This document shows positions 2,811 to 46,880 of a DNA stretch of 64,000 nucleotides, piece after piece. The translations under genes were made by a program, and so were the position numbers. Where the stretch lies: positions 40,390,016-40,454,015 of the forward strand of contig CM055092.1 of NCBI GenBank assembly GCA_029204225.1, in the 5' to 3' direction. Source of the stretch: Diphasiastrum complanatum (taxonomy: Eukaryota > Streptophyta > Lycopodiopsida > Lycopodiales > Lycopodiaceae). A model generated the notes under the pieces. It made no database searches and was not told where the DNA came from. It saw only the letters and a program-made list of their open reading frames with translations. How positions within the stretch are numbered: position 1 is the stretch's first letter; each line of letters starts with the position of its first letter.

Positions 2811-2894
2811 AAGCAGGACTTAGAGCAGGCAGAAAATGGAGACAAACTTGTGATGAATGAGAACATGCACCATGAAGAGCAGCAAAAGGTAGCC

Positions 2895-2988
<94 letters not shown>

Positions 2989-5900: not shown

Positions 5901-6684
5901 AAGGCCGAACTATTTTGGTTTCTTATGGTTTTGTCTTTGGTATTTCAGCTTTTTGTATGTTTAAGATTATCAATTATAGAATCCAGATATGTGGGTAGTT
6001 AAGGAGCCTGCTTTGTGACTAGTATGTTATATATATCGTCTATGCCTTGGTAACTCTTGTTTACGTAATAGTCTTTATCTTTATTTAATATTTTATTTTA
6101 AAAATTTGCTTTCTTTGTCGATTGTTATTTGCTGATTCTTTGAAGCCAAGATAGCAACCTATGCTTGCGCATTGATGGGACCAGACACGAGGGTCCGGGC
6201 CAAAATGGTCGCGTCCGACGCCCAGACCCGGACGCGTCCGACCCCCGGACGCGGGGTCGGACGTGTCCTTTTTTTTGAATTTTTTTTTTTTAAAGGCTGG
6301 ACGGGTTTTTAAAAAGAAAGAAGAAGAAGCAAAAACCCGCGGGCCCTGCGGACAGTCCGCAGAACCCGAGAGCAGGCAGAGGGCGGAAGAGGGAGAGTGT
6401 GGAGGAGCATAGAGTGATAGAGAGAGAGAGAGAGGGAGAGAGAGAGAGAGATGGTGTTTGTGTGTGTGTGTGTGTGAGAAAATTGTGTGTGTGAAAATTG
6501 TGTGTTGATTTGTGTGCATTCAGTTGTGTGTGTGTGGTGATCTGTGTGAGAGAGAGAGGAAGAGAGAGAGTGTGAGGAATGTGTGTGTGTGAGTTTAGGA
6601 TTTAGGTTTAGGTGTGCTTGGGTTTGGAGTTTAGGGTTTAGGGTGGGAGAGAGCTTGGATTTCCGTGCTTCTGTGTGTGTGCGC

Positions 6685-6782
<98 letters not shown>

Positions 6783-9700
6783 TGCTCGTCCCATTTGGGA
6801 TGAGGTGGAGGTGATGCCCGACAAGAAGTGGTGTTGCCCTTTTTGTCGAAAGCAGTTCACAGAGAACGCCTCTCGGGTTCGAGCACATCTGGGGGGGTTG
6901 CGAGTCCGACCCACGGGGGGGACGCTACGGGATTGGCATTTGTATGGTCATCCCCGCTGCGGAGAGGGCTTGCATTATGGAGACATATTCTGAGACAGCT
7001 GTTGAGCCCGACGAGCCGTCCACAGATGCCGCGGACTCTATTTCTACTGGTGCACCCACTGCCACCGACCCTGCCATTGGTACACCCAGCGCCACCGCCC
7101 CCACTGTCGCATCTGCACCCGCCACTGCCGCTGCATCTGCACCCGCCCCCGCCTCCGCCTTTGCCTCCGCCTCCGCCAGTACTCCCCATGGATCCACGGC
7201 CCCCACTGTTGCACCCACGCCTCTGCCATCACCGTCAGATCTGCACGGCCCGTCCACATCCTCCGCTTCCGCACTTGCACCTATGCCACCACCTCCACAT
7301 CCGCATCGTCCATCCGCATCCTCCCAGCCATCCACATCACGAGGCACCAGACAGATGTCCATGCCGAGATCTTTCAGAGAGGGGCAGCACAGAGAGGCCA
7401 CCAGGACCATAGCACAGATGTTCTATGACCTGAACCTCCCCTTTATCATGGCATCATCCCGCATGTTTCGAGAGGCTATCTCGAAAGTTGCAGTCTGTGG
7501 GCCCCGGCTACACACCACCCACAACCGACGCACTACGAGGCCCTTTGCTCGAGGACCGGGTTGCATCAGTCAGAGAGAGACTGGCCGCACTGCACGAGGC
7601 TTGGGATAGATACGGCTGTTCCATCATGACTGATGGGTGGACTGATCGTCGCAGACGTCCACTCATCAACGTGATTGTTTCCAATTGTTACGGTTCCATG
7701 TTCCTGTGTAGCATCGACGCCTCCGAGGCAGGGAGAGTGCATTCGGCCGAATACATTTACGGCATCATTCGTGCGGCGATAGAGGAGGTCGGACCACAAC
7801 GCGCTGTCCAGGTATAATATTCTTTCATTAGTTGCTTGCTCATTTGTTGCTTGATGTTGATACAATAGTTCTGCGTAGTTTTCGATTGATTGCAATGTGT
7901 TTCCGAACTGTGAACTGATCGTGTGAACGTATCGCGAAAGGTTGTGACGGACAATGCGTCCAACTGCCGCGGTATGGGGGAGCTTCTTATGGCAGACCTT
8001 CATTGTCTAGACTCCATGCGCCGTACACTCACTGGACCTCCTCCTGCATTCCATCGGGCGCCTGCCTTGGGTCAGTGACATTCTCACGAGGGCACTTGTG
8101 ATCGTGGACTTTGTCACACGCAAGCGCCGCATGACGGCACTTTTCCGCACATTCAGCAGGTAACCTGCCACTTACTTTTTGGCTCGTTCAAGATGCTCTT
8201 TTTTTTTTGCTCGTTTCATGTGTGCCTCTCATTCCGTTTGTCAATGCAGGCTCGACTTGAAGAAGCCCGCTCGCACCCGCTTCGCCTACCAGTTCATCAT
8301 GCTTGAGCGACTACACAAGCTCAAGGGTGAATGGCGGCACATGGCCACTTCGGCAGAGTTTACCGCCATGGACCTGTCCACGACCCCAGAGGGCTTGGCC
8401 TTCCACGAGATCTTATTCACGGAGCCTTTCTGGGTGGATATGCAGCAGCTCATGGACGTCATGCGCCCCATCTACTCTGTTCTGAGACTCGTTGATCGCG
8501 AGGGGTGCACGATGGGCCTCATTTACGAGTTCATGGACCGCATAGGCGAGTCTCTCCAGCGTTCTGAGCTGGACCCTGCCAGGTATAACTTTTTTCCGTC
8601 TTACCATCCTTACTTCCTTTTCACACTTTGTTTTGTCTTGCTGCCGCAACACGATGGTATGTAACTGTTGCCTCCACGTGGTTTGGTCCATAGGTTGGAA
8701 CCTATCAGGCGCTTGTGGTAGCGGCGATGGATAAGTTTCACCGGCCCATTCACAGTGTGGCCCACATACTGCATCCGCTGTTTCAGAGCGAGAGGCAGTA
8801 TGACGATGCAGAGTTGCGTGCGGACTGGTTCGCATACATCCGCCTCCTCAGCAGCGACACTGGGTTCCGCAGTAGGCTCGAGGTGCAGAGGCTCGGTTAC
8901 AGGTAAACTCTTGATCTATCGCACGCGGTCGTTCGTTCAATTTCCCTGCGCGGGCTCAAGTGTACTCAAGCATATCGTTGCTCAACTGTAGGCACTCTCT
9001 GGGGCTGTTCGGCGAGGACCTTGCACTTCGAGAGAACAGGCTCTTGCCTGTATCATGGTGGGAGAGCTACGACGTCGGGCAGCCAGACCTGAGGACGCTC
9101 GCGCTCCGAGTCCTTTCACAGGTACGTTGTCTTGTCTCATTCATCCAACCAGTTTTCGCATTTTCTCTACAAGGTCGGTACTCACTCGAGTTGTTGCCAA
9201 TTAATGCAAGACTGTTTTGCTTGCGCGTGCGAGCGGAACTGGTCAGCATTCAGCCTTGTTCACACGAACAGGCGGAACCGTCTGACGACGGAGCGGTGCA
9301 ATGACCTGGTGTACTGCAACACCAACACCAGAGTGGTTCGACGCATCACGGAGAGCATGAGGGCAGGAGGCGCACACGCCTTACTGCTGCAGGTATATTT
9401 CGTTGCTCTGTCGTTTTGCTTTCGTATTGGTTTGAGACATTCAGTTTAATGCCCTCACGGTTGCTTCGGCTGTTCTCACGAATGATTGACTTGTGCAGGT
9501 CAATCCCGACGAGTGCCTGGTTGCAGCGGCAAGTCTGGCTGGGAGTCTGGAGGCATCTAGGACTCCTCTAAGTCTGGGCCAACGCCTGCCAAGAGACGAC
9601 TAGAAGAATCATCAGTGCGTCCCCTCTTGGCTGGCCTGCCTCTGGGTCTGCCGGAAGGAATCCTCTGTGGTACACTCCTACCTGGGGGTCTCCCTCTGCC

Positions 9701-21995: not shown

Positions 21996-22000
21996 GAGAC
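21996..22000. repeat. 5-bp target-site duplication GAGAC, left
   Basis: GAGAC directly precedes the TGTAG start of the left LTR and recurs immediately after the right LTR at 28,070-28,074. Confidence 0.9.
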
Positions 22001-22937
22001 TGTAGAAAAAAATGATAACATTCTTCCTCAGAGAACACGATGAAAGTTTGAATAAATCAAACTAATATCAATGTCTTCAATCATGGTTTGTTTCTGATCT
22101 ATGTACTAATATAATAGTTTTTTTTTTATTGAATAAAACGTACGGAATTAAGAGACAACTTTAGAAAATTTTAGACAATAAGAAACTATTGATCAGAAAA
22201 TGAATTTTTAGAACTCTAAATCTGAATCATCAATATAGATCTCTTGCTGTATTATCTTGCTGTTGTGTCTCTGATTGAGTTAGTTACAATAAGTAGTGCA
22301 CATGTATTTATATTGCTACAGGACAGGTCTTTTGGTCTTTTATTCTGTAATAGTAGATATCTAACCGTTTACGACGGTTGATATTCATATAGACGTTCTG
22401 TTTTCAAGGTCAAATAATTTATGTTCGCGAATTTTTCGCGACAGTCTGTCTCTTCATCACAACTTCGTGTTTCACAAATTGTTCGTGACACTTGTCTCTT
22501 CACGACATTTTCGTCTTTCGCGAATTGTTTGCAACAGATTACAATTTTGAGCTTAAAGAAGAATCCAGAAGATTTCACGAACTGTTCGCGATAGTTTTGT
22601 GATAGGTGAGCTTGAAGAAGAATCTAGAATATTTCACGAATATTTCCAGACAATTTCTCGACATTTGAGGTTTGAACAAAAAACAAAATATTTCGCGACA
22701 ACATTCTATTCGCGAATCTTTCAAGCTTTAGCAAGAAAACCATGAGCTTCTACAAGAAACTGTTTCGTGAATCTTTCGAGTTGGCTGCAAGATAAACTTC
22801 GTGAATCCTTCACAAATATTTTGAGTTGGTCATGAATAGAAATGTTTTGAGTTCGCATTCATTTTTTTCTCATCCTTTGTCAAGTAAACTACGCGCTTTT
22901 TAGTAGAATTGAGATTTGTTTGATCAGGTGTTCTACA
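22001..22937 (-). repeat. 3' LTR of the 22-28 kb copia element
   Basis: 937 bp, TG...CA bounded. The interior carries many near-palindromic TTCGCGAA or TTCGCGAC motifs and their decayed forms between about 22,420 and 22,850. Adjacent on the inner side is the polypurine tract. Confidence 0.93.
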
Positions 22938-22956
22938 GCTCCCTCTCAAAGTGGGC
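22938..22956 (-). other. Polypurine tract of the copia element
   Basis: On the minus strand the sequence before the 3' LTR reads CACTTTGAGAGGGAGC, the usual primer for plus-strand synthesis in copia elements. Confidence 0.8.
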
Positions 22957-22988
22957 AGTTGGATTAACCCCAATCTTCTTCGTTACTT

Positions 22989-23640
22989 TTAGAACAAAGC
23001 TTTACTGAGTGGCTTCGTAAAGATATCAGCTGTCATTTCCTCTGTGGGTATGATGACTATCTTCAATATCTTCTTCTCGACTAAGTCCCGAATTACATGA
23101 TACTTGATAGCTATGTGCTTTATTTTTGAATGAAATACAGGATCCTTCATAAGATAGATTGCTGAAGTGTTATCCATTAACAAGACATAAGGTTCAGAAA
23201 TAGATTCATCAAATCATTCCAACATCTGTTTGATCCTGATAAGCTCATTTGCCATCTTGGCTGTTGCTACATATTTTGCTTCACAAGAAGATTGAGCTAC
23301 TACTGTTTTCTTTTTGCTTATCTAGGGTATGACTATGCCAGATACTAGAGTACAACCTCCTGAAATACTTTTTCTATCATCCTTCATGGATGCCCAACTT
23401 GCGTTATTGTAAGATTCGATGTGAAATCCAGCTTCCTTCGAATAACATAGTCCATAGTATTGTAGTACTCTCTTTGCTAACTTCCAATGCAACGATCCTA
23501 GGTTTTGATTATTTTGGCTCAGCCTGTATACTGCAAATGCTATATCAGGTCTGGTGTTGTCTGCTAGATATAACAATGACGATAGGGTGTTTTGGCCATT
23601 TGCTTCTCTTCCTCGAGAGTCTGCGGACAATCCACCTTGT
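22989..23640 (-). pseudogene. copia RNase H region, broken
   Basis: Two minus-strand pieces: 23,322-23,630 (YLADNTRPDIAFAVYRLSQ, then SYNNASWASMKDDRKSISGG, normally D.DWA) and 22,989-23,183 (MDNTSAIYLMKDPVFHSKIK, then TADIFTKPLSKALF). They correspond to the connection/RNase H part of copia Pol. A stop lies between them. Confidence 0.85.
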
Positions 23641-24412
23641 TCAGTATTGTTCTAGGTGTCATTGGAGTATGCACACCTTTGCATTCGAGCATGTTGAAGT
23701 CTTCAATGATCTTTTGAGTGTACTTTTGTTGGTGAAGATACAACTTACCACCTTCAAAGTCTCTCACGATCTGCAAGCCTAGATAAATTTTAGCTTCTCC
23801 TAGGTCAACGATCTCAAAAATTTCAGAAATGTCTCTTTTGACAGCTGAAATTAACTTATCTCTTCTTGAGAAGATAAGTGTGTCATCAACATAGACAGCT
23901 AGAATGATTATTTCATTTTGGACATGCTTGATATAGACAATTGATTCAACAAATAGATGTTCGAAGCCTAAGGAACGTAGTGCTTTGTCCTTCTTTCTAA
24001 ACCATTGTCTTGCTGCTTGTTTCAATCCATAAATGCTTTTATTCATGTGACATACGTATTCTGGATATTCTTGATTTACAAAACCAAGTGGTTGGTCCAT
24101 GAATAAGTCTTCTTCCAATTTTGCATGCAAGAAAGCAGTCTTCTCATCTACAATATGGATTTTCAGATCATGAGCCACTGCATATGCGAATAACAAGTGA
24201 ATTGATGTATGTTTGACTATCGGTGAGAAAGTATTAGTGTAGTCAATCCCATACTTCTGTGAAAATCCTTTTGCAACTAACCTTGCTTTGTATTTGATGT
24301 TTTCTCCATCATGACCTATTTTGATCTTGTAGATCCACTTGCATTTGATTGGTTTTCTGCCATCAGGTATAGGTGCAAGTGTCCATACATTGTTCTTATA
24401 CATGGATGACAT
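23564..24412 (-). pseudogene. copia reverse transcriptase (RVT_2)
   Basis: 282 open codons covering most of the RT. Landmarks are WIYKIKIGHDGENIKYKARL, LVAKGFSQKYGIDYTNTFSP, SIYGLKQAARQW and the catalytic box LAVYVDDTLIF, then GLQIVRDFEGGKLYLHQQKY. The fingers and palm are intact here, but neighbouring domains are in other frames or contain stops. Confidence 0.92.
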
Positions 24413-24983
24413 TTTGTCCTCCGTTGCTTAAAACCCGCGATCTTTATCTAGTCCATCAACACCTTCCTCAAATGTTTGAGGTTCGTTAGAGAAACTACAA
24501 AATTAGATGGTTGTATTAAAAACATCCTGACCATACCTTTCTGGTGGTTTTCGTTGTCTGTCAGATCTTCTCACAGGTGGTTTCGAGTTCGATTCTGATT
24601 CGACCTTTTCTGCTAGAATTCGAATTGGTGATTCGAGTCTATCAAGTACTCGATCTTGACCTCCCTCTAAATCTGGTATTTCTCTTTCATCTTCTGCTTG
24701 TTTTACTTCTGTCGTTGTTGGTAGCTCATAATAGTTTTTAAGAATTTCATAGCCAACTAGATGACTATCTGCTATATATTTTGGCTCATCAAATTTAACA
24801 TCTCGAACAACTTTTATCTTGCCAGTTTCGGGTACATAGACACGATAATATGACGAATGTAACTCGAATCTTACCAGAAAATCTTGTTATGTCTTTTCAG
24901 AGTTTCTTTCTCAGCTTATCTGGTATGTGCATATACACTGCGCATCCAAATGTCTGAACATGTGCAAGATTTGGCTTCGACTT

Positions 24984-25733
24984 CTACCATATCTCATGAG
25001 GAGTTTTATCCAGTATTCGAGATTTCAGAATATGATTCTGAAGATAATTTGATGTAGCCACTGCTTCTGCCCACAATTGTTTTGGTGCCTTCGCATGAGC
25101 CATCATACACCTAGCAGCTTCCATAAGTGTACGATTTTTTCGTTCAGCTATTCCATTGTGCTGAGGTGTGTATGATGTAGTCTTTGTATGCATAATACCT
25201 TGATCAGTACAGTAAGTTTTGAATTCGTTGGAAATGTACTCACCTCCACTATTTGTGTGAATATGCTTCAGCTTATTTCATGTCTGCTTCTTAGCCCAAT
25301 TCGTATACTCAACAAATTTCTCGAAAGCTTCAAATTTTGTACGTATAAAGTATACCACAACGAACTTGCTTAAGTCATTAATAAACATAATGAAGTACTT
25401 TGCATCACCCAACGACAATACTCCGAACGGTCCACAAATATTTGAATGCACAATTTCCAGTACCTTAGTTGCTTTATAAACATCTTTACCGAAAGGTGTT
25501 CTAGTCATCTTGCCTTTAAGACAGGATTCGTAGGTAGTTCAAATATCTCTATTTTTGATTTTGACTCCTTCAATTCTCTGACTTTTGTTGGCTTGGTACA
25601 AGGCTTCCATGTTCATGTGACATAGCCTCTTGTGCCACAGTATATCTTTTAAAAATCTGAGTTTGATTGGCTTGTTCGATTTTAGTTCGAATGTTCTGGT
25701 GATACAAATTTCCTTCTCTGTTGCCTTTAGCAA
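24984..25733 (-). pseudogene. copia integrase, broken
   Basis: Minus-strand pieces give the pre-integrase zinc-binding region (LWHKRLCHMNMEALYQ), the core start EIVHSNICGP and the end of the core (HNGIAERKNRTLMEAARCMM) with the catalytic Glu. The usual first catalytic Asp in H(S/T)D.CGP reads Asn here, and the conserved FIDD reads FIND. Stops separate the pieces. Confidence 0.85.
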
Positions 25734-26834
25734 CTAGGTTATCAGAATCTTCCTTGAACAGTTTACAAGAGTTCTTATTGAAGGTTACTGACATGCCTGT
25801 ATCGACTATCTTAGCTACGGATAGAAGATCTTTGTCAAGAGTAGGGACATAGAGAACTTCCTCCAGTTTCTTTTCACCCTGATTCATGTTCAGCCATAGT
25901 ACACCAGTTCCATCAACCACGTGCTTAGAACCGTCTCCAAGTAGAATGAATCTTGAAGAGTTTGTCTTCTTGTACTCAGACAATATATGTTTCGAGAAAA
26001 CAAAATGTGAGGTGGCTCCCAAATCAAGTACTACTTCTTGAATTTTAGAATTTGTTAGATAACATAGATTAGCACTAACATAAGCTGCTGAGTCCCTTGT
26101 TGCCCTATCTTCTGCTACTTTGGAGCATTCTGCCTTATCTTTGACATAGTTTGAATCTGAACATTCGCTTCGATTCTGCTCATTTTTGTTTCTGGAATTC
26201 TGATAACAGTCTACTGCTGCATGACCCCGTTTATGACAATGAATGCATTCAATCTTTGGATTTGACCAACACTTATCTTCTGTGTGACTTGATCTTTTGC
26301 AGCTGTTGCAGATTTTCTTATCACCATAATTTTTTTGTTGTTTTTCAGATTGCTGATCATTAGTCTTAGACTCATTCTTTTTAGATGACTCCCTCTTAAA
26401 CTTAGACTTCTTAGAAGATGTATTCTTATGAGTAAATAGAGCATTTTCGAAATCACCATTGTCGTCATAGCATTCATGAGCTTCTACTTTCTCTTTAATC
26501 CGTCTATTGCCTTTTGAAGTGTCATTGTCGCATCTTTCGCCAATAAGGTTCGAGTTGTGTGGAATGATCTGGGTAGGGCTCTAAGAAAATAACTAAGCTG
26601 TTTTTCCTTTGAAATTGCATTTTTTGTACCAGAATTCTGCAAGGAAGTAAACAACTGTTTTATCTTTTGTATGGATGTGTTCATGTCTTTGTTGTCCCAC
26701 TGTAGGTAAGTTAATTGGTCTTCCAAAAATATGATATGATTACGAGATCGAGTCTCATTCTTGGTTTGCAATTCTTCCCATAAATCTTTTGCATTCAAAA
26801 TTGATGTAAGATCTAGTATTATATTGTCATGCAC
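25570..26834 (-). pseudogene. copia gag and protease, broken
   Basis: 26,484-26,834 carries a UBN2-type gag domain (ILNAKDLWEELQ). A frame change at about 26,480 leads to zinc-knuckle residues (CIHCHKRGHAAVDC). The protease follows at about 26,022 with DLGATSHF where active copia proteases have DSGA(T/S)H, so the active-site triplet is altered. GTGVLWLN and VLYVPTLDKDLLS complete the protease fold. Confidence 0.85.
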
Positions 26835-27125
26835 TGGAGACGCAATAATTGCTATAGCTTTATCATTTCTTAAACTCCGTTCTCAAACTCCTCTATTGGT
26901 GTTACCCATTGTCAAAGACCTTCGTCCTTCAATATGAGTGAAGTCTTTAATTTCCAAATCAAGTAGTTTGAACCTTCTGGATCCAAGATCATAGTGATCT
27001 TAGCCTGAATATTGCTAATCAACGACATCTTCTATTTTCTGAATAACTCCAGATAGTGGCTTGTTGATGGATGTATGAAGAATGTCGAGAGAGGTACGAA
27101 GATACCACTGTATCAACTCTGACTC

Positions 27126-27137
27126 GCTCTGATACCA
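27126..27137 (-). other. Primer-binding site, initiator tRNA-Met type
   Basis: Minus strand reads TGGTATCAGAGC one base inside the 5' LTR (27,139-28,069), the standard copia primer site. Confidence 0.9.
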
Positions 27138-27138
27138 C

Positions 27139-28069
27139 TGTAGAAAAAATGGTAACAATTCTTCCTCAGAGAACACGATGAAAGTTTAAATAAATCAAAC
27201 TAATATCAGTGTCTTCAATCAGGTTTGTTTTTTATCTATATACTAATAGAACAGTTTTGTCTTGATTGAATAAAACGTGCGAAATTAAGAGACAACTTTA
27301 GACAATTTAGACAATAAGAAACTATTGATCAGAAAATATATTTTTTTAACTCTGAATTTGAATCATCAAGACACATCTCTTGTTGTCTTATCTTGTTGTT
27401 GTGTCTCTGATTGAGTTAGTTACAACAAGTAGTGCACATGTATCTCTATTGCTACAGGATAGGTCTTTTAGCCTTTTATTCTATAACAGTAGATATCTAA
27501 TCGTTTACAACGGTTGATATTCAAATAGATGCTCTGTTTTCGAGGGCGAATAATTTCTGTTCGCGAATTATTTGCGACAGTCTATCTGTTCATCACAGCT
27601 TCATGTTTCATGAATTGTTTGTGACACTTGTCTCTTCACGACATTTTTGTCTTTCACGAATTGTTCGCGACAGATGACAATTTTGAGCTTGAAGAAGAAT
27701 CCAGAAGATTTCGTGAACTGTTCGCAACAGTTTTGCGATAGGCGAGAAGAAGAATCTAGAATATTTCACGAATATTTCTAGACAATTTTGTGACATCTGA
27801 GGTTTGAAGAAGAAACAGAATATTTTGCGCCAAGATTCTGTTCACGAATCTTTCGAGCTTCAACAAAAAAATCATGAGCTTCTACAAGAAACTGTTTTGC
27901 AAATATTTTGAGTTGTCTCAAGATAAATTTTGCGAATCCTTTGCGAATCTTTTGAGTTGGTTACAAATAAAAATGTTTCGAGTTCGTGATCATTTCTTTC
28001 TCATCCTTTGTCAAGTAAACTGTGCACTTTGTTAGTAGAATCAAGATTTGTCTAATCAGGTTTCCTACA
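27139..28069 (-). repeat. 5' LTR of the 22-28 kb copia element
   Basis: 931 bp, TGTAG...CTACA, aligning end to end with 22,001-22,937. Followed by GAGAC at 28,070-28,074. Confidence 0.93.
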
Positions 28070-29530
28070 GAGACATACTTCTCCATTTTTATTGTCTCTC
28101 CTGAAGATGAAACTGGTATATTGATATCTTTAGGCCTGATTGGTTCTTGACTATCGTCATCACATCAATTAATATCTTATTTTCCTGAATCAAGAGATCT
28201 AACCGGCCCTCAAACTGGTTTTGCACCACTTGGAGAGACTGGAGCTAATTTGAGAACTGATTTTGCTCTTACAGTCTCTTGGCCTTTTCACTCTGCAATT
28301 CTTCCAAAGCTGTCAGCAACTCTCCCTAGATTTCTTAGGAAAACTATCATAGGTTGGAAAAGTAAGAAATTCAGAAGGAAGACGATGGTAGGTAGGAAAA
28401 AAAAACTAAGAAGCTATGGAGTGAGTTGGAAGTGGAACAATTAGTTGAGTATTTACAACAGTGGTGATGGCGGAAATTATAACAGTAGAGTTAAGAGAGA
28501 CAATGACGGGTGTGGTATCAACAATGGTGGTGGTAGTGGTGGAAATGGAGGTTAGTGATGTGACTGGTGCAACTACATTTAAAACTGTCTCAACGTCCTT
28601 ATTTACAAGATTGCCTTCATTGAAGTATTCAAGAGTGTCTACGTCGATGGAGCCGTCTTGCTTCAGAGCAGAGGGGTCTTCAGCTTTCTCTTTAGCCTTT
28701 GGGCTTTCCTTGAACTCAACTATTACTTGTGCCACTTGATCTTAATCTTCTACTTTTGTTTTTTGATCAAACTCAGCTGCACTCGTTTCTTCTGCTTTGT
28801 CTTCTTGAGTGGAATCAGCTGCAATTATCTTCTCTATGCATGTAGCTGCAGGCAACTCCCTTTCTCCTCCCCTGAAACTGTTGCTTGTGGTTGGATGGCC
28901 ACCACAGAAGCAAGTGTCTACTATACACGAGAGGGTGAGGTAATAATTTGAAATGATCTCGATGGTGATTGGGATCTGGTGCTTCTAGCTGGTGATTGCA
29001 ATGGAGATTGGATCTACTGTGGGTCCATGATCTAGAGTTGAGCTGAGGAAGCAGCATGTGAGATTCTTCATTGTCGAGTATGTCTTGTTTGGAGGCTGTC
29101 TTTCTTTTCATCTTCATTATCTTCACTACTGGAGGGAACATCTTCGTATCTAGCCATTTGCTTTTTCTGCTTCTTGGGAGTCAGTTATTTTGTCTTCGCG
29201 TGTGGGGTATCTGACTCTGTAACTAATTCAAGAGCTGGTTTGTTGGTGGTCATCTTATTTCTCAACTTCTTTGCTGGTGGTGAGGTATCAGCAAGTTGAC
29301 CGGCGTGGGGTGATGAGCTGTCATGTCACTTCTTAAGTCGGTGTTCATGAAACATAGCAGTCTATTGGGAAAGTGAGGCTGAAGCTGTTGATGGTATATA
29401 GCCTCGGCTAGCAACAACATCCCTTGGAGGCAAAATAAGCTTTAAGTCGATAGAGGATTGACTTCGAGCCAAATCGAAGAAAATGTAGCCCAAGGAGATA
29501 ACTGGGGCTCTCTTCTGTAAGGCAGTAATA
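28070..29530 (-). pseudogene. N-terminal half of the decayed coiled-coil gene
   Basis: Minus-strand reading from about 29,530 gives NWVGFISRQLITALQKR, LGYIFFDLARSQSSIDLKLI, a basic/acidic linker (KKQKKQMARYEDVPSSSEDN), a Ser/Thr-rich stretch (28,735-28,406) and the start of the coiled coil (EELQSEKAK, QNQFEGRLDLLIQENKI). The coiled coil resumes at 21,995 after the copia element. Stops and frame changes show decay. The layout resembles uncharacterised plant transposon-encoded proteins. I cannot name it. Confidence 0.45.
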
Positions 29531-30889: not shown

Positions 30890-31358
30890 AAGGCTTTTTT
30901 CTGCCTTGAAAAAAAAATGGGATTGCTCTTACCTTTATCATCTCATTCACTTAATTTTACTCATGACTTAGATGAAGAAAATGCATCTTAGTCAAAAATC
31001 TTCTCCCAAGATATATGTGATATTAGTGATCAATCTAGGTTTGAATTTAGTTAGGCTAAAAGTTGTCAAGTCCCTATGGAACCTAGCCAAACTATTGAGT
31101 TTAAGTCCTCCCGCACTTCTTATAAGCTTTGGAGCCTCCCCTCCATCAATTTTCTTGGCCCTTTGTCTATTGATCTTTGGGTTATTCTTGCACATCTTAC
31201 TGAAAAGAAAATACAAACATGCAAACTTGCGGCTCTTCAAAAAAACTCTTCTCTTGAAACACCCATTTGTTTTGATACTATTATTCCCATGAACAAACTT
31301 GAACCCTCTTGATGTCCTTTTGAGCAGACTGAGATCAGAATTAGAGGTCACTTTGATA
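30890..31358 (+). repeat. Left arm of a large palindrome
   Basis: This 0.47-kb arm is the reverse complement of 31,503-31,970, with roughly nine in ten bases agreeing over long aligned runs. One frame reads YKLWSLPSINFLGPLSIDLW and LAALQKNSSLETP, which looks like decayed coding sequence of unknown family. Confidence 0.9.
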
Positions 31359-31377
31359 CTAGCTTAAGGGCTGGTTG

Positions 31378-31451
31378 TGGGCAAGGAGGGATTCGAACCC
31401 TTGACACCGTGGCTCGTAGCCATGTGCTTTGATCCTCTGAGCTACAGGCCT
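31378..31451 (-). tRNA. Plastid-type tRNA-Arg(ACG)-like sequence at the centre of the palindrome
   Basis: Minus strand reads a complete cloverleaf-like order: TGTAGCTCAGAGGAT (D arm), TGGCTACGAGCCA (anticodon arm with ACG), a short variable loop, GGGTTCGAATCCC (T arm) and TGCCCA. From general knowledge this matches chloroplast trnR-ACG rather than nuclear tRNA-Arg. A few bases differ from the form I recall, including the 5' end, so it is probably a nuclear copy of plastid DNA and a pseudogene. Confidence 0.75.
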
Positions 31452-31502
31452 TGTCTCCATTGGATTTTCTTTCTTCTCCTCAGCCATTCTCGGTAAAGCC
31501 AC

Positions 31503-31970
31503 TATCAAAGCGACCTCTAATTTTGGCCCCGGTCTGCTCAAAAGGACATTGAGAGGGTTCGAGTTTGTTCATGGGAATAATAGTATCAAAAGAAATGGGT
31601 GTTTCAAGAGAAGAGTTTTTTTTGAAGAGCAGCAAGTTTGTAGGTTTGTATTTCCTTTTCAGTAAGATGTGCAAGAATAACCCAAAGATCAATAGACAAA
31701 GAGACAAGAAAGTTGATGGAGGGGAGGCTCCAAAGCTTGTAAGAAGTGTGGGAGGACTTAAACTCAATAGTTTGGCTATGTACCATAGGGACTTGACAAC
31801 TTTTAGCCTAACTGAATTCAAACCTAGATTGATCACTAATATCACATATATCTTGGGAGAAGATTTTCGACTAAGATGCATTTTCTTCATCTAGGTCATT
31901 AGTAAAATCAAGTAAAGAGGTGATAAAGGTAAGAGTAATCCCATTTTCTTTTTTAAGGCAGAAAAAAACC
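31503..31970 (-). repeat. Right arm of the large palindrome
   Basis: Inverted copy of 30,890-31,358. The 144-bp spacer between the arms holds the tRNA. The right arm abuts the inverted copy of the unknown repeat. Confidence 0.9.
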
Positions 31971-36371: not shown

Positions 36372-36647
36372 ATCATCGGCTCACTAATGTACGCAATGAT
36401 CTGCATGTGACCAGACCTTGCATATTCAATCAGTACACTACTTAGCCAGTTCCTGTCAAATCTAGGCTTAACTCATTGGAAAGCACTAATAAAGTTCATA
36501 AAGTACATCCAGGCAATGAAAACTCTCAGCCTCTGCTACGGAGGCAGCCACACTGCCAACATCCTTGAAGCCTACACAGATGCGGATTGGGCAAGAGATG
36601 TCGACACCAAAAAATCCACTTCTGGATCTATATTCATTAGAGAAACT
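36372..36647 (+). pseudogene. copia RNase H fragment of another copy
   Basis: Immediately after the LTR the plus strand reads IIGSLMYAMICM, a TGA, then PDLAYSISTLLSQFLS, LTHWKALIKFIKYIQAM, TDADWARD and KSTSGSIF. This is the pol segment just before RNase H. Its sharp start at the LTR end suggests that the preceding copia element inserted into an older one. Confidence 0.8.
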
Positions 36648-36790
36648 TAGAGCCCGAAGAGGGCCTTTGAAAAAGATGTTTTTTTATTTAATTTTCTTAT
36701 TTTCGTTGCCATGTGGACCAATTGAAACCTTAGCTTTGGGGTTCTACGTAACGTAGAATTTTTCAAATATAAATAAAATAAAAACTTTTA
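36637..36790. repeat. Terminal-repeat-like end of an unknown DNA element
   Basis: CATTAGAGAAACTTAGAGC begins inside the copia RNase H codons (after GSIF). Together with the following sequence (AGGGCCTTTGAAAAAGAT, a T-rich stretch, CATGTGGACCAATTGAAA, TACGTAACGTAGAA) it is the inverted counterpart of 44,830-44,990, one end of the element inside the gypsy RNase H. Confidence 0.55.
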
Positions 36791-37106
36791 AAATATATTA
36801 CTGTTTCGTCGGGCAGCATGTGGAAATGCTATTGGTTGATGAGGCATGCCCTTCTAGCTCATCACTACCCGAAGAGACCCAAAAATATTGAAAATGAATA
36901 TGACAGATGGTTGAGATGAGAAAATCGATGTACCATTAATGTATGTGCATTGTCAAATCATGGTTAACAGGGTTAATTAGAGTTAATTTGTGGTGCCAAA
37001 TAGATCAGTATTTCAAATTTTTCCCAATATTTTTTCTCAGATCCATGGCTACGCAAATTTTCAAATTCATAGTTCATTGTTTTAGATTTTTGCATGCAAA
37101 TTACGA

Positions 37107-38478
37107 ATGGCGCCATCAAGGAAGCCGTGCTCCTCAATCAACTATGTGCTTCTATTCAACGAGACAGATGATAATGGATTATGGGTGCCAAGAAAATATT
37201 CAAAAAACTCTTGGGTTTTGATGCATCCATCATCAAGAGGAGCATTTTGAAAAAGGAAAAGGTCAAAACTATCATTTCGATTTTATTAAAAGGCCAAGAA
37301 TTTCGGATTTCAGAACATTATCAGGAGGAAAATCTATTTCTGAAATTCTAGTCCAACATGTATATATGCATTCAGAGATAAATGTGCAAGAATTCAATAG
37401 TCAAGATCACAAAAAAAAACAACTGTGAGTATTGATATTTTTTATGCTTTGATTTTTGTCATTTAGAAATATCTAATAGTAAACTTGGCCAATCTGTCAT
37501 TTTTCTTTTGCTAGATTTATATCCATCCAACATAAATGAATGAGATCCGAGTGGATCTTTAGTAGGTGTGTTAGATGTTATTCACATTGATATTGGACAG
37601 CTACAATATTGAGATAGAACTACAAAAGATCTAGTTGATGGTGGGATCTTTTTTTATGAATCAATGTACATTCTTGATACAAAAGAAAATTTTGGACAAA
37701 TAGTACCAATTCCATTACCTAGTTTTGAAAGTGATGAATGGATTGCACCAGATGCTACAGTCTCAGAATCATTTCGTTGCAAGATATATAATGATGCAAA
37801 AAATTCATTAAAAATGAGCACAAGATAAAAAACAGTCAGATTGATTTGGTTTATTTCCTTGAATATGTTTGTGGATTTCTTTTCAAGTGTCAATGTACAC
37901 AAAACCCCAACGATGTTTGTATGCAAAAATTTATCAGATAGTTTATTATCTGAACTTATGGATGAAGGCTGGGACAAAAGATCGGTTGGAGAAATAGAAT
38001 GCAGAATTAAAATGTCTTCCATGTGCTTCCATTATCAAATTGAAAAACAAATGTTGAGCTTATGCTTCCATTATCAAAGATGGAAAAAAAATAAAGGTAA
38101 ATGGGTGCCACTCGATCAAGACTTAGAAGCCAGTGGACATTCAAAATGAAAAAAATATTGAAATTATATACAATGATGTTGTTTTGACATGTGTTGAGGT
38201 GGAAGAAGATTGGAGCCTAAACTACATCCGGCGGGAACTAGTGCTCCTACAAGATGATGTACTTTTAGGCTTCAGATTCATTTTCAATGGTAAACTCGTA
38301 AGTAACTGTAAACACTCGATTTTTTATGAATAGATTCAATCAAACTTTCTAATACAATCTTTGTACTAATTGTAACTAACTTTGTATTAGTTTTATGCGA
38401 GTACGTAAAAGACATGAGCTCGAGATCAAATGCAGAGATATTGGCGAAACAATCCAACTTATGGAAGAACATTGAGAT
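37107..38478 (+). pseudogene. Unrecognised decayed gene, tail-to-tail with the H3-peptidase gene
   Basis: The plus strand shows several coding-like stretches. An ATG at 37,107 opens a peptide with NYVLLFNETDDNGLWVPRKY. A frame change is followed by GKGQNYHFDFIKRPRISDFR and a donor CT|GTGAGT near 37,427. Then GSLVGVLDVIHIDIGQLQY, DGGIFFYESMYILDTKENFG and FESDEWIAPDATVSESFRC (37,514-37,810). Later EIIYNDVVLTCVEVEEDWS and FRFIFNGKL precede a donor GTAAGT at 38,300. A possible last exon from about 38,391 reads RKRHELEIKCRDIGETIQL. Two TGA codons sit where CGA would give Arg. I do not recognise a family. The segment near 38,150-38,300 has a ubiquitin-like feel but this is weak. Confidence 0.5.
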
Positions 38479-38674
38479 TCACTATCAGCAAATACATGCC
38501 AATCATCATGTCTTTTTATCAATAGAGAAAATTGCATTTCACTATTACACTATGGACACAACCTGATTGTAAGAATCTATATTGATATCAATAAAAAAAA
38601 ATCATAAATGGGTTGTTTACATGTAAAATGATTGTATCTTTTTTTTTTATGTCTCTCTATTTACAAATAGATCT

Positions 38675-40780
38675 CTATTCAATCATTTTTTCTATATTTT
38701 CTTTATCAATATTAGGAACTGATAAGAGAATAGCTCTTTCTATAATCTGGCCCTCCTTTGTTTCGGGAAGGGCCTCAATGCCTTTTAAGACAAGAGGAAT
38801 ATCTGCTATAATATTGCCTTCCTCTGTATTAGGAAGGACTTTTATTCCTTTTTGATCATATAAAATGAGATCTGCATCCTGAGCAACCTGAAAGGTTATT
38901 AAGGCAGGAGCAGCGTCCTTTTGAGGGCCCTTGATCCTAGGTGCAATGCTTACACCGTATTGGGCATAGGTTCTGATCAACTCTTGCCGAAATCTATATA
39001 CATCATCAGGAGTATACGACTCAAGAGTGAACTGTCATCACAAAACACGAGAATCAGCAAATTACAAACAATGATAGTAAAAATATATGAATCAGAATGA
39101 AAGGAACTACAAATGAATAGAATATTACCTTTTCAATATCTACATCCACTTGTAAATTATACCACTCAAAAAATAGCTTTGTATTGTATAGGACGAACCA
39201 TGCACAACTAAAAGCGTCCTTTTGTTGTACACACTACATATATAGAACAAAAACTAGTAATATTATGATAGAATATTTATGCTATGATGATACATTCGAA
39301 TTAAAAAAGGAATACATGCATATCAGAGATAAATTGAATATACCTTGAGAGATCTAATGCTTATATCTCCAATTTAAGTTGCCGTTGTCGGTATTTCCCG
39401 AACGGCATCATGAAGTAGAGAATCAAATTCTCTATGTGTATTTGCAGTTGAGTTTAATTTTACACACAAAAAATTTGATACTCCCTCTTTATTTATCTTT
39501 ACAAAAAGAATGTTCAGGCTCCAATGCAGACTGCAACAACCAAAATACAAATATCATTAAATCCATATTTATGAAAAAATTCCTTACTTATTAAAGCAAT
39601 GAAGCATGCAACAATCCAGATTAAAGCAACAGAAACAAAAGAGCAAAACTTATTTATTTTCATATGGAATCAAATAAAATTTCGCCACAGGACTGCATTT
39701 GATAAAATAGACAGCCTTCTCAAAATTGGCTTCTTTCGCCTTTACCGCTCCCATGAAAAATGGACTAACAACAAAAACTATACCATGGGAATTAAAACTA
39801 ATACTATTTGCAAAAAAAAAAACTCCGGCTTCTATTATTACATCTGAAATTGCTGAGGTTTTATCTTTCAGCTCGGCACAAAATTTGGGACCTAATCTAA
39901 AGCTTGTACGTGTATCTGGAAGAAAAAAATCAAAAAAGTTGTCGAGAAGATCAATTTTATTAGCTAGTTAGGCCTCATATTGATTATAATGGTCAGAATC
40001 AAAATAAACTTGGGCTGGATTGCATGGAATTCTCACAAAAAAATTATGTACAGGAGCAGAAACAGAAGTGGAAACAATATTTATAGATTTCTCTATTATT
40101 TTGTCGAGCTCTTCTTGGGTAATCAACACTTTTGGTGATGAAACCTACTGAGGAGCTGGACGAATAACAAGAGGAGGAAGGGGTGACGATTCTCGATCTG
40201 AGTCAGATTCTCCAGCATCTGACTCAGAGCTCAAGAAGATATGGGGTTTCTTGGCCGGGATACGTCTAGGAGGAAGGGAAGCAGCTAGCCTTCGAGATCC
40301 AGCCTTCTTGGGGACAGGTTGCTTCTTCTTCCTCCTAGAGGTAGTAGGCAAGTCAGTACTATCCAGAGGTAGGTCTCTGGAGGTGCTGGCATTATCAACA
40401 TGCAGACCAGAATATCTGTTCCGAAGCCTTTTGAGAATGACGAAATCCTTTGGCATGATGGTGACAAGCTTACCATGCACTGCCAAAAGACAAGTATCCT
40501 CAAAAAATTGGGACAGAAAATCTTCTGCAGCACCCTATAAGGCCTACATGGCTGTCACGGCAAAACAAATATTCAGCCCAAGTGACAGAGTGACATTCCG
40601 TACAGATCGGTTGAAAGGAGCTCTAGGGATCAACAATTCAGTTGATCTCTGGAGTTTTCTGATCTCCCTCATCCAGACCTGCTTCCTGCCACGCCTACAA
40701 CCAATACCAGGGGGGACACGGGAATGAGATGGCTATACAATGGTTATGGCAAGGACAGTGGATTTGCTCCCGGCCATCAT
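38675..40780 (-). pseudogene. Histone H3-fold and Ulp1/C48-type cysteine peptidase fusion, four exons, six in-frame stops
   Basis: Minus-strand exons 40,780-39,654, 39,530-39,344, 39,233-39,129 and 39,031-38,675 sum to 1,776 bp, exactly 592 codons. Residues about 32-122 resemble histone H3: MREIRKLQRSTELL, AAEDFLSQFFEDTCLLAVHG and KLVTIMPKD, with a short non-canonical N-tail. A Lys/Arg- and Ser/Asp-rich linker follows. The C-terminal half resembles Ulp1/SENP (C48) peptidases: ISDVIIEAGVFFF, IPYEN then LHWSL (His), EFDSLLHDA (Asp), QQKDAFSCAWFV (Gln, Cys). Six in-frame stops (four TAG, two TAA) each differ by C-to-T from CAG or CAA, and the first donor reads ATAAGT instead of GTAAGT. So the gene is dead, but its structure is preserved. 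C48 peptidases normally process or remove SUMO-like proteins, or serve mobile elements. The role here is unknown. Confidence 0.8.
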
Positions 40781-41430
40781 TCTGAGAAGAAAAAAATCAA
40801 CAAAAAAAGTTTGAACAAAAGAAAAGTGGTTGAAAACAAAAAAATTTGCGATAAAAGGGCGCTTGAGATCGATACCAGAACTGAATATCGGTTTCGAACG
40901 TAAGATCTACACAAATTATTTTAAGAAAAGAGATGCACGCTTGAAAGCGATATTGGATTACCAGCGGTATCGGACTCGAGCGCATTGTGAGAGGGCGGAA
41001 GCTTGAACGGTGAGAGAGAGCGCTTGAGAGCGATATTGGGAGCGAAAACCGAAAATTTTGCGAAAAAAAATGAAAATTCCGAGGACTTATATATACAAAA
41101 TTTTTGCACATGTGAAAAGATGGCCGAGACACATGTCGTCATATTATTGGTCCATGCGAAATGTCCATACTGACAATGATGACCCAATTATGAGGCCAAG
41201 TGCACTGGGACATGTGCATGAATCCATTCTCGACGCGTGTCATTCTCGCACGTGACAGATGTCAAATCAATCATTCTAGGTATGGCGCATTAATTTTGAC
41301 CAATCACAAGTCGACACGTGTTCCTTCGCCACTCCTCCACACATGCAATTTTTTTTTAATAAATAGCCATGGTGAGGGTCAGGAGAAGAGGTTGCTCGGT
41401 GGTATGCAATCCATCTTGGCAATATGCACT
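40781..41430. other. No gene recognised; flank upstream of the H3-peptidase gene
   Basis: A stretch of several hundred bases with GAGAGCG/CGCTTGAGAGCGATA motifs repeated (about 40,858, 40,943 and 41,021). It could be the promoter of the minus-strand gene at 40,780. Nothing coding is supportable. Confidence 0.45.
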
Positions 41431-42547: not shown

Positions 42548-43745
42548 TTAGGAAAGAAAACAACTAATACATATCAAGATAAAAACAGGGTTCATTGTAC
42601 TTTCTCTGTCAGCTCCCATTGACCATAGTGTCGAGGATATCGCCTTGAAGGGTTTGGAGTTGTACATATTCGGAGGCAAAGATTTTTTAATGACGTAAGG
42701 TCCTTGGCCAAAAAATTTCATTTTGCCTTTGAAGGCTTTGGCCTGGTATAGCAGGACCTTATCTCCAACTTGGAAGTCTCTAAGTTTCAAAGATTGATCA
42801 TGCCATGTTTTTTGTCGTCGTTTGTGGACTTGTTGAGCATGGATGCTGATCCATCGTGTTTCACAGAGTTGCTTTAGATGGAATAACTTGTTTCCTAGAT
42901 TCTGGTGAGTATCAAGCTCAAGATTATAGGCCACTCGAAGGGAGGGGATATGGAATTCCACAGGCATAATGGCTTCTTGGCCATATGTTAGCTGGAAAGG
43001 GGTCACTTCGAGGTGGTGCGAGAAGCCCAGAGAGCAGCATGGAGTTTGAGTTTCCAATCAGATCGGCTGGATTCAACGGTTTTGGTGAGAATTCCACATA
43101 GGATTTTATTGGTGGATTCCGCCTGGCCATTGCATCGTGGGTAGTATGGAGAACTTTTGCGATTTACCACAAATTTTTTTGAAAGGAGATCTACTATGAC
43201 AGAGTTAAGGAAATGTGTACCCCTATCACCAATAAGCTCTAGAGGACATCCGAAACGAACTATAACCTATTCATATAGAAATTTTGCAGTAGAACGAGCG
43301 TCAACATTGCGAACAGCTCTTGCTTCAGCCCATTTGGTGCAATAGTCCATAGCTACTATGATGTAACGAGATTGTGTGTGTCGAGTAGCAGGACTAATAG
43401 GTCCGACATAATCAATTCCCCATTTCTGGAAAGCTTGATCAGTGGTTACAGGGTGTAAAGGCATGTAGTCAGTCTTTTGAAAGCGTTTTGTGCGTTGGTA
43501 GACATCACAAGCCTTAGTGTAATTGTGCGTATCCTTGAAGAGTGTTGGCCACCAAAAATCGGCCAAGAGGATTTTCATAGCAGTTGTTTCAAAAGAGAAA
43601 TGACCTGCACCAATACCTTCATGAGTGAGAAAAATTACAGAGGGTATTTCGCCTTCAGTAAGACATCGTCGGATGATTTCATCTAACTCTTGCTTGTAGA
43701 GTTGTCCTGCAATTAATGTATACGGTTTAGTTTTGAAGACCAACG
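42548..43745 (-). pseudogene. Ty3/gypsy integrase
   Basis: Minus strand: the zinc-binding H2C2 region (GIGAGHFSFETTAMKIL, then KACDVYQRTK), core start KWGIDYVGPISPATR, AMDYCTKWAEARAVRNVDAR, then VTPFQLTYGQEAIMPVEFHI and the C-terminal KLRDFQVGDKVLLYQAKAF with GQGPYVIKKS. The family is that of the fragment at 29.9-30.9 kb. Stops and frameshifts break the central core at about 43,060-43,270. Confidence 0.9.
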
Positions 43746-44221
43746 CACGTTGTTCAGGTTTAGAGAAGGATCCATCTGCCCTGAAGTTAAATATCCTGTA
43801 ATTTCCTTAGCCCATATAGGTGTAGAGTCAACTTGGAAAATGATTGCATCTGGTAAATATCGTTGACGCCTTGATCAGGGGTAGGAAGGCTAGGGATTTG
43901 GGATAGATGGTCTGCTAGAAAATGCTGAACTCCCTTACGAACCACGATCCTAAACTCAAATTCTCGCAGTAATAGGATCCATCTAGTAATACAGCCTGTG
44001 GTGCAGGTCTTGTTGATGAGATACAACAGTGCTTGATGATCAGTGAAGAATACAAAAACTTTTCCTAGAAGATAATGGCGAAACTTCTGAACTGCATATA
44101 CCATTGCCAAGGCTTCATGTTCGGTAGTTGTATAATTGACTTCAGCAGGTACCAATTGTCGACTAAGAAAACGGATTGGGTAGTCCTTTTTGAATTCTCC
44201 CGGTTGGGTGTGCACTGCTCC

Positions 44222-44990
44222 ACATTAGAGAAAATTTGGACTTGGAAAGGGCCCTATAAGGATTGCCACGTAGGATGACAATTTTTTGGCAATGCAAAAT
44301 ACTAGAATAAAATTTTTTTCTGCCCGCAGTCTTGCCCACACAGTCTTCGATGATTAGCTATTATGTGGGTGATATAGTCTGTGACTAAAAAAATCATAAC
44401 TTTTGAACAACAACTCGGATTGAGATGATTACGGTGCCATTAGAAAGCCCTCGACGAGAGCTTTTCAACGACACCCTACATAACCCAGTTTCGAGCGATG
44501 GTGAAGAAGTTATGGCTCGTCAAAGTTTTGGTCGGTCAACACTTGGTCAACCGGGTCAAACCGGTCAACTGCGCTTGAAAGAGATACTGGGTTGACCAAG
44601 TGTTGACCAACCAAAACTTTGACTAGCCATAACTTCTTCACTGTAGCTCGGAACTAGGTCATGTTGGGTGTCGTTGAAAAGCTCTCGTCAAGGGCTTTCT
44701 AAAGGCACCGTAATTGTCTCAATCCGAGTTGCCGTTCAAAAGTTACATTGTTTTTTTTTTTTTTTTTGTTGAGTTGCATACTATACTACAAATAAAATGG
44801 CTTATTTACGGGTTGCCCCCGACGCAAAATTACATTTCTTTTAAAAAGAAATAAAAATCAATTTGAAGGAGCTACGTTACGTAGATTTCAAATTTGAGTG
44901 TTTTGATTGGACCATGTAGAAGAAAATTTTGATAAAAAAAATAAAAGGTATCTTTTTGAAAGGCCTCTTTTGTGCTCAAATTTTCTCTAA
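44222..44990. mobile_element. Non-autonomous TIR element inserted in gypsy RNase H
   Basis: Its ends are CATTAGAGAAAATTTG and the exact reverse complement CAAATTTTCTCTAATG, a 16-bp perfect terminal inverted repeat. It splits the gypsy RNase H reading frame. One subterminal region of about 160 bp (44,830-44,990) is homologous, inverted, to 36,637-36,790. The centre is a long foldback. I could not settle a target duplication. It carries no gene. Confidence 0.75.
44395..44755. repeat. Foldback (long inverted repeat), arms of about 170 bp
   Basis: The left arm (about 44,395-44,565: CATAACTTTTGAACAACAAC, GAAAGCCCTCGACGAGAGCT, GAAGAAGTTATGGCTCGTCA) is the imperfect reverse complement of the right arm (about 44,585-44,755), around a short core near 44,570-44,585. 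It lies entirely inside the TIR element. Confidence 0.85.
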
Positions 44991-45299
44991 TGATGGCATA
45001 CTTGGATGCATCGGTATGCACATGGAATTCTTTACTATAATCAGGAGCCCGAAGGATGGGTGCATTGGTAAGGGCTTCTTTGAGTTGATTAAATGCGATG
45101 CGTTGTTCATTCGTCCATTTGGGAACTACAACTACTTTGTAGATTATGCGTGCTTTGTTAGCGAAATAAAAAATAAAGCACCGATAGTAGTTGGCGTGGC
45201 CAAGGAAAGAGTAAACTTCACTTTTCCCTTTCTAGAAAGTCATTTTCTCTCTCTAGATCTTATTGATCCCCAGGCTTCCTTTAATCATGCCTAGATCGT

Positions 45300-45640
45300 G
45301 TGAGGTGATTGCACATCGATCTGAGCTCTCTGGACTCCGCTAGAACCGATCAAAGATTTTCAGCCATAGGAACTTGGCGCCGGTTGGATTCTGGTCACAG
45401 TGGCACCGGGAGCGGCACCGGCGCCGTTGGCGCCGGGAGCAGCAGGGGCGCTGCTGGTGCCGGGGAAATAGATGGCGCCGATGGCGCCGGAAGTAAAGCT
45501 TGTAAAGGTAGCTTTACAACATCCACCCCACCTTTATAAAATCTGATGTACTCATCAGATGTCAGATTAAAGTAAAGGTGTCTCCCAATTAAAATGACTA
45601 TACATTTAAGCTACTTGGCACAGTACTCAATTTACTGGCC
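45300..45640. repeat. GC-rich GGCGCCGG/GGCACCGG repeat patch inserted in gypsy pol
   Basis: Between the RT thumb (ends about 45,650) and the RNase H start (about 45,290) lies foreign sequence with at least seven GGC(G/A)CCGG-type units at 45,370-45,500, in an otherwise AT-rich area. One frame gives Gly/Ala repeats, the antisense frame Pro/Ala repeats. Neither resembles gypsy Pol. Confidence 0.55.
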
Positions 45641-45649
45641 ACTTTTTAT

Positions 45650-46880
45650 TAACATTGAAGCTGGCACACCACAAGTCGGAGGCTCAGCTTTTTGTACTGA
45701 AAAATTACATAACTTGAAAAAAATATCTTTGTCTGGGAAAAGCGTAGATTTGATATTGCTTTCGTAAAACCTGAGAACCTTATTAACTGGTGATAGAGGC
45801 CTTTCTTTGAAATGTACGCCCCAGTCGCTTCTGACTTTCGACTTTGGAACTCCTTTGAGCTCCTGATTTGTCCTTGATGCACTTTGTGTTCGCGGTTCCG
45901 GTAGATTTTGAATGATAAGCTCTTTTCAAGGTCAGTGGCAATGCCATTTTGTGAAATAATAAATCCTAACACAATACCATGTGTTACCCAAATCTAGCAT
46001 TTTTCAGGATTAAGAGAGATGCCAAAGCGTTGACATTGGATAAATTTTTTTCGAACACAGACAGATGGCATGTTTCTTCTGAATGTGCTCCTAAATCGTC
46101 CAAGTAAACCTCCAAAGTATCGTCCATCTGCTGAGAAAAGGCCGCTTGCATAACACGTTGGAAGGTGCTAGAAGCATTGCAGAGACCGAAGGGCATGACT
46201 TTCCAGCAGAAGGTTCCCCATTCTGTAGCAAAAGCAGTTTTATGTAGATCTTCTTCAGCGATTTGGATCATATCGTATCCGCTAAAGCCATCTAAGAAGG
46301 AGTAAGTCTCATCTCCTGCGAGATTTTCTAAGATGGATTCTCCGAAAGGTAATGGAAAATGATCACGTCCGGTGACGACGTTAAGTTTCTTAAAGTCGAC
46401 ACAGATTCGAAGTTTTCCATTTTTCTTGGGAACGATGACAATTGGGGAGACCCACTCAGTATTTGGAATGTTCGGGGGTTGGTGTAGGAACAGAGGCAAT
46501 CTTAGGACTTTTCTAACAATTGTGAGGTCACCCGACGGTTGAATTTGAAGCAGTTTTTTCATTTTCTCTTTCATAGTATGACCACGTGGTTGAGGCTTTG
46601 GTGGTGGAGAGGTGTGTGGATGAGGGAAGGTTGGTACATCATGAAGGATCTCATCATCAATTTGAAAGATGGTCTCCTCCTCACAGAGATCCCATGGATA
46701 GTGTGGGCATTTGGGACGGTAGAATTTTGTCTCAGGCTTTTCAATTGCAACCTTGGCAACTGGTTCCACCTTGGAAGCATGTTGTGGATAGGTCCTAAGT
46801 GGAAGTGCCTCCATGTAATTGAGGATCTGAATATCAAAAATGTCATCCACTCAACGAATGAGGCAACATCAAAATCCCAG
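45650..46880 (-). pseudogene. Ty3/gypsy reverse transcriptase
   Basis: Minus-strand frame 45,984-46,850 includes WVSPIVIVPKKNGKLRICVD, FSGYDMIQIAEEDLHKTAFA, PFGLCNASSTFQRVMQAAF and the catalytic EVYLDDLG. A frame change leads to the thumb (GFIISQNGIATDLEK) at about 45,960. The RT is the N-terminal end of what remains on this strand. Gag and protease are absent, and beyond 46,880 lies an opposite-strand gypsy piece. Confidence 0.92.

Follow-up and report, generated by a model that had tools for sequence, protein, structure and literature searches.

The window, i.e. the whole stretch of 64,000 nucleotides of Diphasiastrum complanatum DNA analysed here, contains on its minus strand a gene copy of four exons (40780-39654, 39530-39344, 39233-39129 and 39031-38675), which join in phase over 1,776 bp (592 codons, the last of them the terminal stop), as an earlier sequence-only reading had claimed. 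Exon 1 (39654-40780), whose border was set by comparison with the related copy L015, encodes in one single frame a short tail, a histone H3 fold (about residues 35-122, positions 40415-40678 of the minus strand, placed by Pfam and PDB searches), a linker and the first part of a C48 peptidase. Exon 2 (39344-39530) carries a His-Trp motif and one in-frame stop, exon 3 (39129-39233) a Gln-Gln...Cys motif, and exon 4 (38675-39031) ends with the stop codon. Exon 4 of this subfamily has at least 40 matches in the genome (40 scored of 1563 candidates), 92-100% identical, among which are the window's own copy and, on C169, a stretch identical to it.

This H3-C48 copy is dead: six internal stops interrupt it, five in exon 1 and one in exon 2, and its first intron has lost the GT donor that L015 has at this place. 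The frame of exon 1 is not due to chance, since it contains 5 in-frame stops in 374 codons while each of 1000 dinucleotide-preserving shuffles contains at least 9 (mean 21.0). The H3 part matches PF00125 (Histone) with an E of 1.3e-20 and its best matches in the PDB are CENP-A and H3 proteins, which bears out the H3 fold proposed from the letters. The C-terminal part matches PF02902 (Peptidase_C48) with an E of 2.3e-4 (21.5 bits, for a cut-off of 20.7); a PDB search with this half alone gave no match up to E 1.

The D. complanatum assembly (1.745 Gb, 5176 contigs) was searched with the histone profile. At least 153 matches were obtained; 150 of 6325 candidates were scored, so that match counts are lower bounds. 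Comparison of 20 of these matches, with 10 kb of sequence each, distinguishes three subfamilies. Subfamily A is made of seven copies (L013, L014, L015, L021, L022, L023 and L025) that match the H3 part of the window copy and at least part of its peptidase half, and subfamily B of twelve copies that match the H3 part and not the peptidase. L026 (subfamily C) is a close relative of the window copy, 78% and 88% identical to it in two parts of exon 1, and contains another H3-C48 stretch, which has diverged. Among the B copies, L009/L010, L012/L018 and L016/L017 look like three pairs of duplicates, with one insertion per pair. Between subfamilies the H3 folds are roughly 44-59% identical and can be aligned.

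Intact genes occur in two A copies out of seven: L015 and L023 show four open exons, GT-AG introns and uninterrupted proteins of 470 aa. Both domains are well recognised in these proteins (L015: Histone E 1e-27, Peptidase_C48 E 1.1e-10, 42.2 bits; L023: Histone E 8.7e-27, Peptidase_C48 E 5.4e-10, 39.9 bits). The C48 profile is thus over its cut-off in the window, L015 and L023. The other A copies are altered: L021 is stop-free with proper borders missing around exon 3, exons 2-4 of L022 are absent, and L013, L014 and L025 contain stops or shifts. In subfamily B, L028 displays an uninterrupted frame of 417 codons (412 aa counted from the second Met) with, in this order, MSEEMARTKQTARD, polyQ and polyP stretches, the H3 fold and an H3 end of normal appearance, and no peptidase.

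The linkage of the two domains was assayed over the genome. A 64-residue query from the C48 exon gives at least 297 matches (150 of 6040 candidates scored). Pairing 136 of the 153 histone matches with 150 of the 297 C48-exon matches yields, among the matches listed, 18 pairs that share strand and order, at distances of 0.8-1.4 kb, and no pair in another arrangement within 2.5 kb. These joined pairs and the uninterrupted L015 and L023 proteins confirm the fusion of H3 and C48 in one protein. The first interpretation was therefore right in that the fusion is real, and it recurs genome-wide; it overlooked that this is the gene of a high-copy transposon, that the beginning of the H3 tail is retained in its relatives, and that one subfamily has no peptidase.

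In the protein database the non-histone part has one real relative, the fragmentary P0002, itself a D. complanatum protein, with 83% identity over 71 residues of the last exon; the H3 part finds other H3-type proteins, at 54% identity at most. No relative was confirmed in the prokaryote contigs scanned. A viral origin was considered and rejected, scans of viral contigs with related queries having confirmed no relative.

A four-row profile of the peptidase half matches yeast Ulp1 with an E of 5.5e-5. L015, L023 and the window copy all have the His-Trp, the Gln and the Cys at matching positions. For the catalytic Asp of Ulp1, the HMMER alignment of the four-row profile puts a Lys opposite; by eye, introducing a gap brings an Asn (KxNS) into this place. 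The FDS of the earlier reading falls on an Asp that is invariant in all four rows of the profile, and either this Asp or the Asn may be the counterpart of the catalytic residue.

The homology between A copies mostly ends at positions 990 (left) and about 9671 (right) of L015. As CATTAGAGGAGTTCTCAATATCAAAAAGACC is present, inverted, at both borders, these delimit an 8.7-kb element; the L015 and L023 genes both lie within such elements. The H3 gene is thus part of a DNA transposon that is present in many copies and bounded by terminal inverted repeats (TIRs; 5'-CATTAG...). The 31-bp end of group A occurs 1004 and 1045 times in the genome with up to two mismatches (0 and 0 for the reversed control pattern), a count that overstates the independent insertions because the dense groups of A ends on C1 share their flanks: of the ends fetched there, all 14 near 65 Mb and all 6 at 97-98 Mb are segmental duplicates. 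At 65.0-65.8 and 97.4-98.5 Mb of C1, segments with this end have been multiplied locally, and their flanks are identical or nearly so.

Several B copies have an end that begins with CATTAGGGCCCTTTTTGG. L012 has both ends and is a shortened B element (2873-9276); the right end of group B was not found in two extended copies, and no B end was found in the examined stretches of L009, L010, L027 and L028. Selection by the ends alone gave four elements. One of them, L065, matches L015 along its full length; L064 still has exon 4 and the H3 fold, L067 has kept part of exon 1, and L066 has nothing of the H3-C48 gene. Target-site duplications are mostly absent, with 1 bp shared at most in six of the seven insertions for which both flanks are available and tca in the remaining one (L038/L039).

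Subfamilies A and B have a common gene set in the same order: gene D, the H3 gene, an “adapter” gene (a label coined in this analysis) and a transposase-like gene. The H3 and adapter genes lie on opposite strands between A and B. The transposase-like pieces carry EWHLA.DLKTLKCMY...C.YC and QGMEKSH...HGG and have neither a Pfam match over cut-off nor a PDB match; from the place and conservation of this gene we infer that it is probably the transposase. The gene D and adapter pieces do not match any Pfam family over cut-off. Since subfamily B has no peptidase, the H3-C48 fusion is not essential to the transposon lineage.

In the window the right part of a subfamily C element survives (36635-41366, minus strand), from the right terminal repeat to the last base matching L026. 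The repeat (CATTAGAGAAACTTAGAGCC...; 36635-36680, plus strand) adjoins a broken copia RNase H frame (36398-36634). It is followed by the remains of gene D (37092-38312, plus strand), convergent with the H3-C48 gene and recognised by tblastn with the ORFs of L015, L023 and L018. Parts of gene D and the H3-C48 gene are all that is recognisable; the left part of the element (adapter, transposase-like gene and left end) was not found in the window. A broken minus-strand ORF with no Pfam match lies upstream of the H3-C48 gene (41360-41898).

A gypsy reverse transcriptase and integrase further upstream (42548-46850) suggested that the H3-C48 gene could be an extra ORF of a gypsy element. Its introns argue against this, as do TIR-bounded copies without reverse transcriptase or integrase along their length; no pair of LTRs was found around the window copy. 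A gypsy RNase H has received, without duplication, the insertion of a non-autonomous relative of 770 bp whose ends are of the same kind (CATTAG; 44223-44992, minus strand), and the frame it interrupts is uninterrupted in L024. This small element contains a 166-nt inverted repeat, 89% complementary (44387-44552 and 44590-44755). The GAATTCGC repeats at 42.1-42.4 kb were discarded, being no more frequent than chance. Elsewhere in the window, copia-like frames lie between two direct repeats (21999-22938 and 27137-28070; about 940 bp, 87% identical), and this region (21999-28070) is probably an LTR retrotransposon. Two nested foldback repeats (246 nt, 95%, and 127 nt, 91%; 31000-31862) surround a predicted tRNA-Arg (31377-31451), and a frame at 50554-51099 matches Nucleotid_trans (PF03407, E 1.7e-33), perhaps as part of a host gene.

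We then compared the tails of the H3 proteins. The start of H3, ARTKQTAR, is recognisable near the protein start in all three subfamilies. It is exact in five of the twelve B copies (L011, L012, L024, L028 and L010) and near-exact in the other B copies, and it is changed and still recognisable in A (MDRRKQTRR) and in C (ARTKSTAR type). With positions numbered from the Met preceding A/D, the Lys-4 position is a Lys in 25 of 26 genomic copies: 12/12 in B, 5/6 in C (L026 has a Glu) and 8/8 in A (the seven copies and L065), where the tail-finding motif included this Lys and all seven fetched copies were still found. At the Lys-9 position none of the 26 has a Lys: B has ten Asp and two Gly, A seven Asp and one Gly, and C six Ala. 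These counts exclude L064 and L070, in which no start was located, as well as the window copy, whose degraded start shows a Lys at the Lys-4 position and an Ala at the Lys-9 position. The first ATG of the B gene is found four codons upstream of MARTKQTAR, which may therefore not be the true N-terminus.

In a tree the 21 transposon H3 rows come together, split by a branch (95/87) from the 17 other rows, i.e. two host H3s, human CENP-A, one plant CENH3 and 13 database proteins (five of the 18 chosen were excluded because the motif did not find their start). The transposon clade is apart from this one CENH3 and from human CENP-A; a host CENH3 was looked for and not found. The ancestor of the transposon H3 may have been either an H3 or a CENH3. 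The tree also places a more diverged H3-like frame of the same genome (L030, 226-510), which has a long branch, with the H3s of subfamily B (96/84).

Within subfamily A the pN/pS is 0.22 for the H3 fold and 0.65 for the linker, and it is 0.33 for the fold in B, in copies mostly selected by histone score, a choice that favours a conserved fold. One copy picked by its TIR gives 0.13-0.92 against seven others. For the C48 half of A the values are 0.61 (first part), 0.37 (exon 2) and 0.49 (exon 3); by this measure it is under less constraint than the H3 fold.

The window gene is thus almost certainly a decayed copy of an H3(-C48) gene borne by a high-copy DNA transposon lineage of D. complanatum. 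The best explanation overall joins this identity to an anti-silencing role, and we give the whole an even chance of being right; the anti-silencing mechanism taken alone is a tentative proposal, somewhat short of even. With more reserve still, we suggest an undescribed superfamily, with CATTAG ends, mostly no duplication and a transposase of no recognised kind, that would place a K4-keeping, K9-less H3 in its own chromatin and, in two subfamilies, a SUMO protease.

Plant transposon silencing depends on H3K9 methylation and DNA methylation, and SUMO participates in heterochromatin. The transposon H3 would pair with host H4 and enter nucleosomes or H3 chaperones. H3K9 methylation being impossible on a protein that has Asp, Gly or Ala at the lysine-9 position, chromatin with this H3 would be unable to bear the mark at that site and would largely keep the lysine-4 end. 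In A and C the tethered C48 domain could act on SUMO at silencing factors, and the two activities together would maintain transcription of the element, an outcome that VANC achieves for VANDAL elements by another route. An H3 that keeps its Lys-4 end and is without Lys 9, with a Ulp1-like domain in two subfamilies, fits such a role. The chromatin tether or nucleosome mimic first imagined for the H3 part is plausible. The action of the peptidase on element polyproteins is unsupported: no polyprotein was observed, the genes are separate and that for H3-C48 is split by three introns.

The transposon could also have captured an H3 gene of the host, together with a Ulp1 gene in some lineages, and carry this cargo without benefit to itself. 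Excerpts of a review describe gene capture as common in plant DNA transposons, and many copies are broken here. But the H3 gene was retained in three diverged subfamilies next to the same genes, two A copies are intact, and the fold is less changed than the linker, albeit in copies whose choice by histone score favours a conserved fold. We therefore judge such passive carriage unlikely.

It is quite improbable that the H3/CENH3-like part brings the transposition complex to chosen chromatin, e.g. centromeric nucleosomes, and so guides integration. The LLIP and AAED motifs of A and C, which we take to resemble plant CENH3, the one extra loop 1 residue of group A (our own count) and the apparent density of A ends in parts of C1 speak for it. 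However, the dense groups that were checked are segmental duplicates with common flanks, so that centromere targeting deduced from clustered ends was rejected; moreover the plant CENH3 included in the tree, a single one, does not group with the transposon H3s, and the histone and C48 places listed scatter over many contigs.

To the same low degree we credit a role as transposition cofactor, with the H3-fold protein shaping DNA in the transposition complex and C48 acting on SUMO in host repair. Ulp1 and OTU domains are recurrent in other transposases, and the excerpted Ginger paper suggests for them a role in transposition or repair (PMC2836005). Against this, the H3 gene is separate from the transposase-like gene, and it is not evident what the complex would gain from a tail that starts with ARTK. 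Finally, two unrelated pseudogenes mistaken for one gene, as the six stops of the window copy and its C48 score just above cut-off could suggest, is an artefact of negligible probability, already contradicted by the intact L015 and L023, which encode both domains, by the single frame of exon 1 running from the H3 fold into the C48 half, and by the 18 joined places against 0 in other arrangements.

The putative anti-silencing H3 can be set against known systems. With histone H3 and CENH3 it shares the H3 fold, the ARTK-type tail start and the closest PDB matches; it differs from them by the absence of Lys 9 in the copies read, an otherwise replaced tail, and the C48 fusion or a long polyQ/polyP insert. 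Giant viruses and bracoviruses have histones, and are alike as mobile genomes with their own histone, the carrier being a virus there and a transposon here. Concerning KDZ (Kyakuja-Dileera-Zisupton) transposons, for which Pfam includes a model, a 362-aa transposase-like piece gave no Pfam match up to E 10. No published transposon-borne H3 was found in open-licence PMC papers.

Ginger1, as far as the cited excerpt goes, has Ulp1 fused to a gypsy-integrase-like transposase (PMC2836005). It is likewise a DNA transposon with a Ulp1/C48 domain and introns, but its Ulp1 is on the transposase whereas here the domain is on H3; no rve or H2C2 match was found in the transposase-like pieces. Fungal DNA transposons carry TET/JBP genes, thought in the excerpt to aid escape from silencing (PMC12730594); they are alike in having captured a chromatin-acting gene, theirs being a DNA-oxidising enzyme and ours a histone. 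A parallel may also be drawn with the VANDALs of Arabidopsis, as the cited extracts present them: VANC is a shown anti-silencing protein that strips DNA methylation from its own transposon family, and KIU-type VANDALs carry Ulp1 (PMC13317346, PMC5735166). Both are accessory genes of multi-gene plant DNA transposons, as is the H3 gene, and the Ulp1 domain of KIU recalls C48. In contrast, VANDALs are described in these extracts as non-TIR MULEs, with VANC containing DUF1985/DUF287, while we find TIR ends and a histone H3; the transposase-like, adapter and gene D pieces have no match over cut-off to a MULE transposase or DUF1985 in Pfam. Transposons are thus known to carry genes that remove DNA methylation. 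If our proposal is true, the cargo here is the nucleosome subunit that receives the heterochromatin marks, which would make for a very direct resistance to silencing and offer a natural K9-less H3, a test of which histone residues silencing needs; given the intact copies, it is testable through the expression of one protein.
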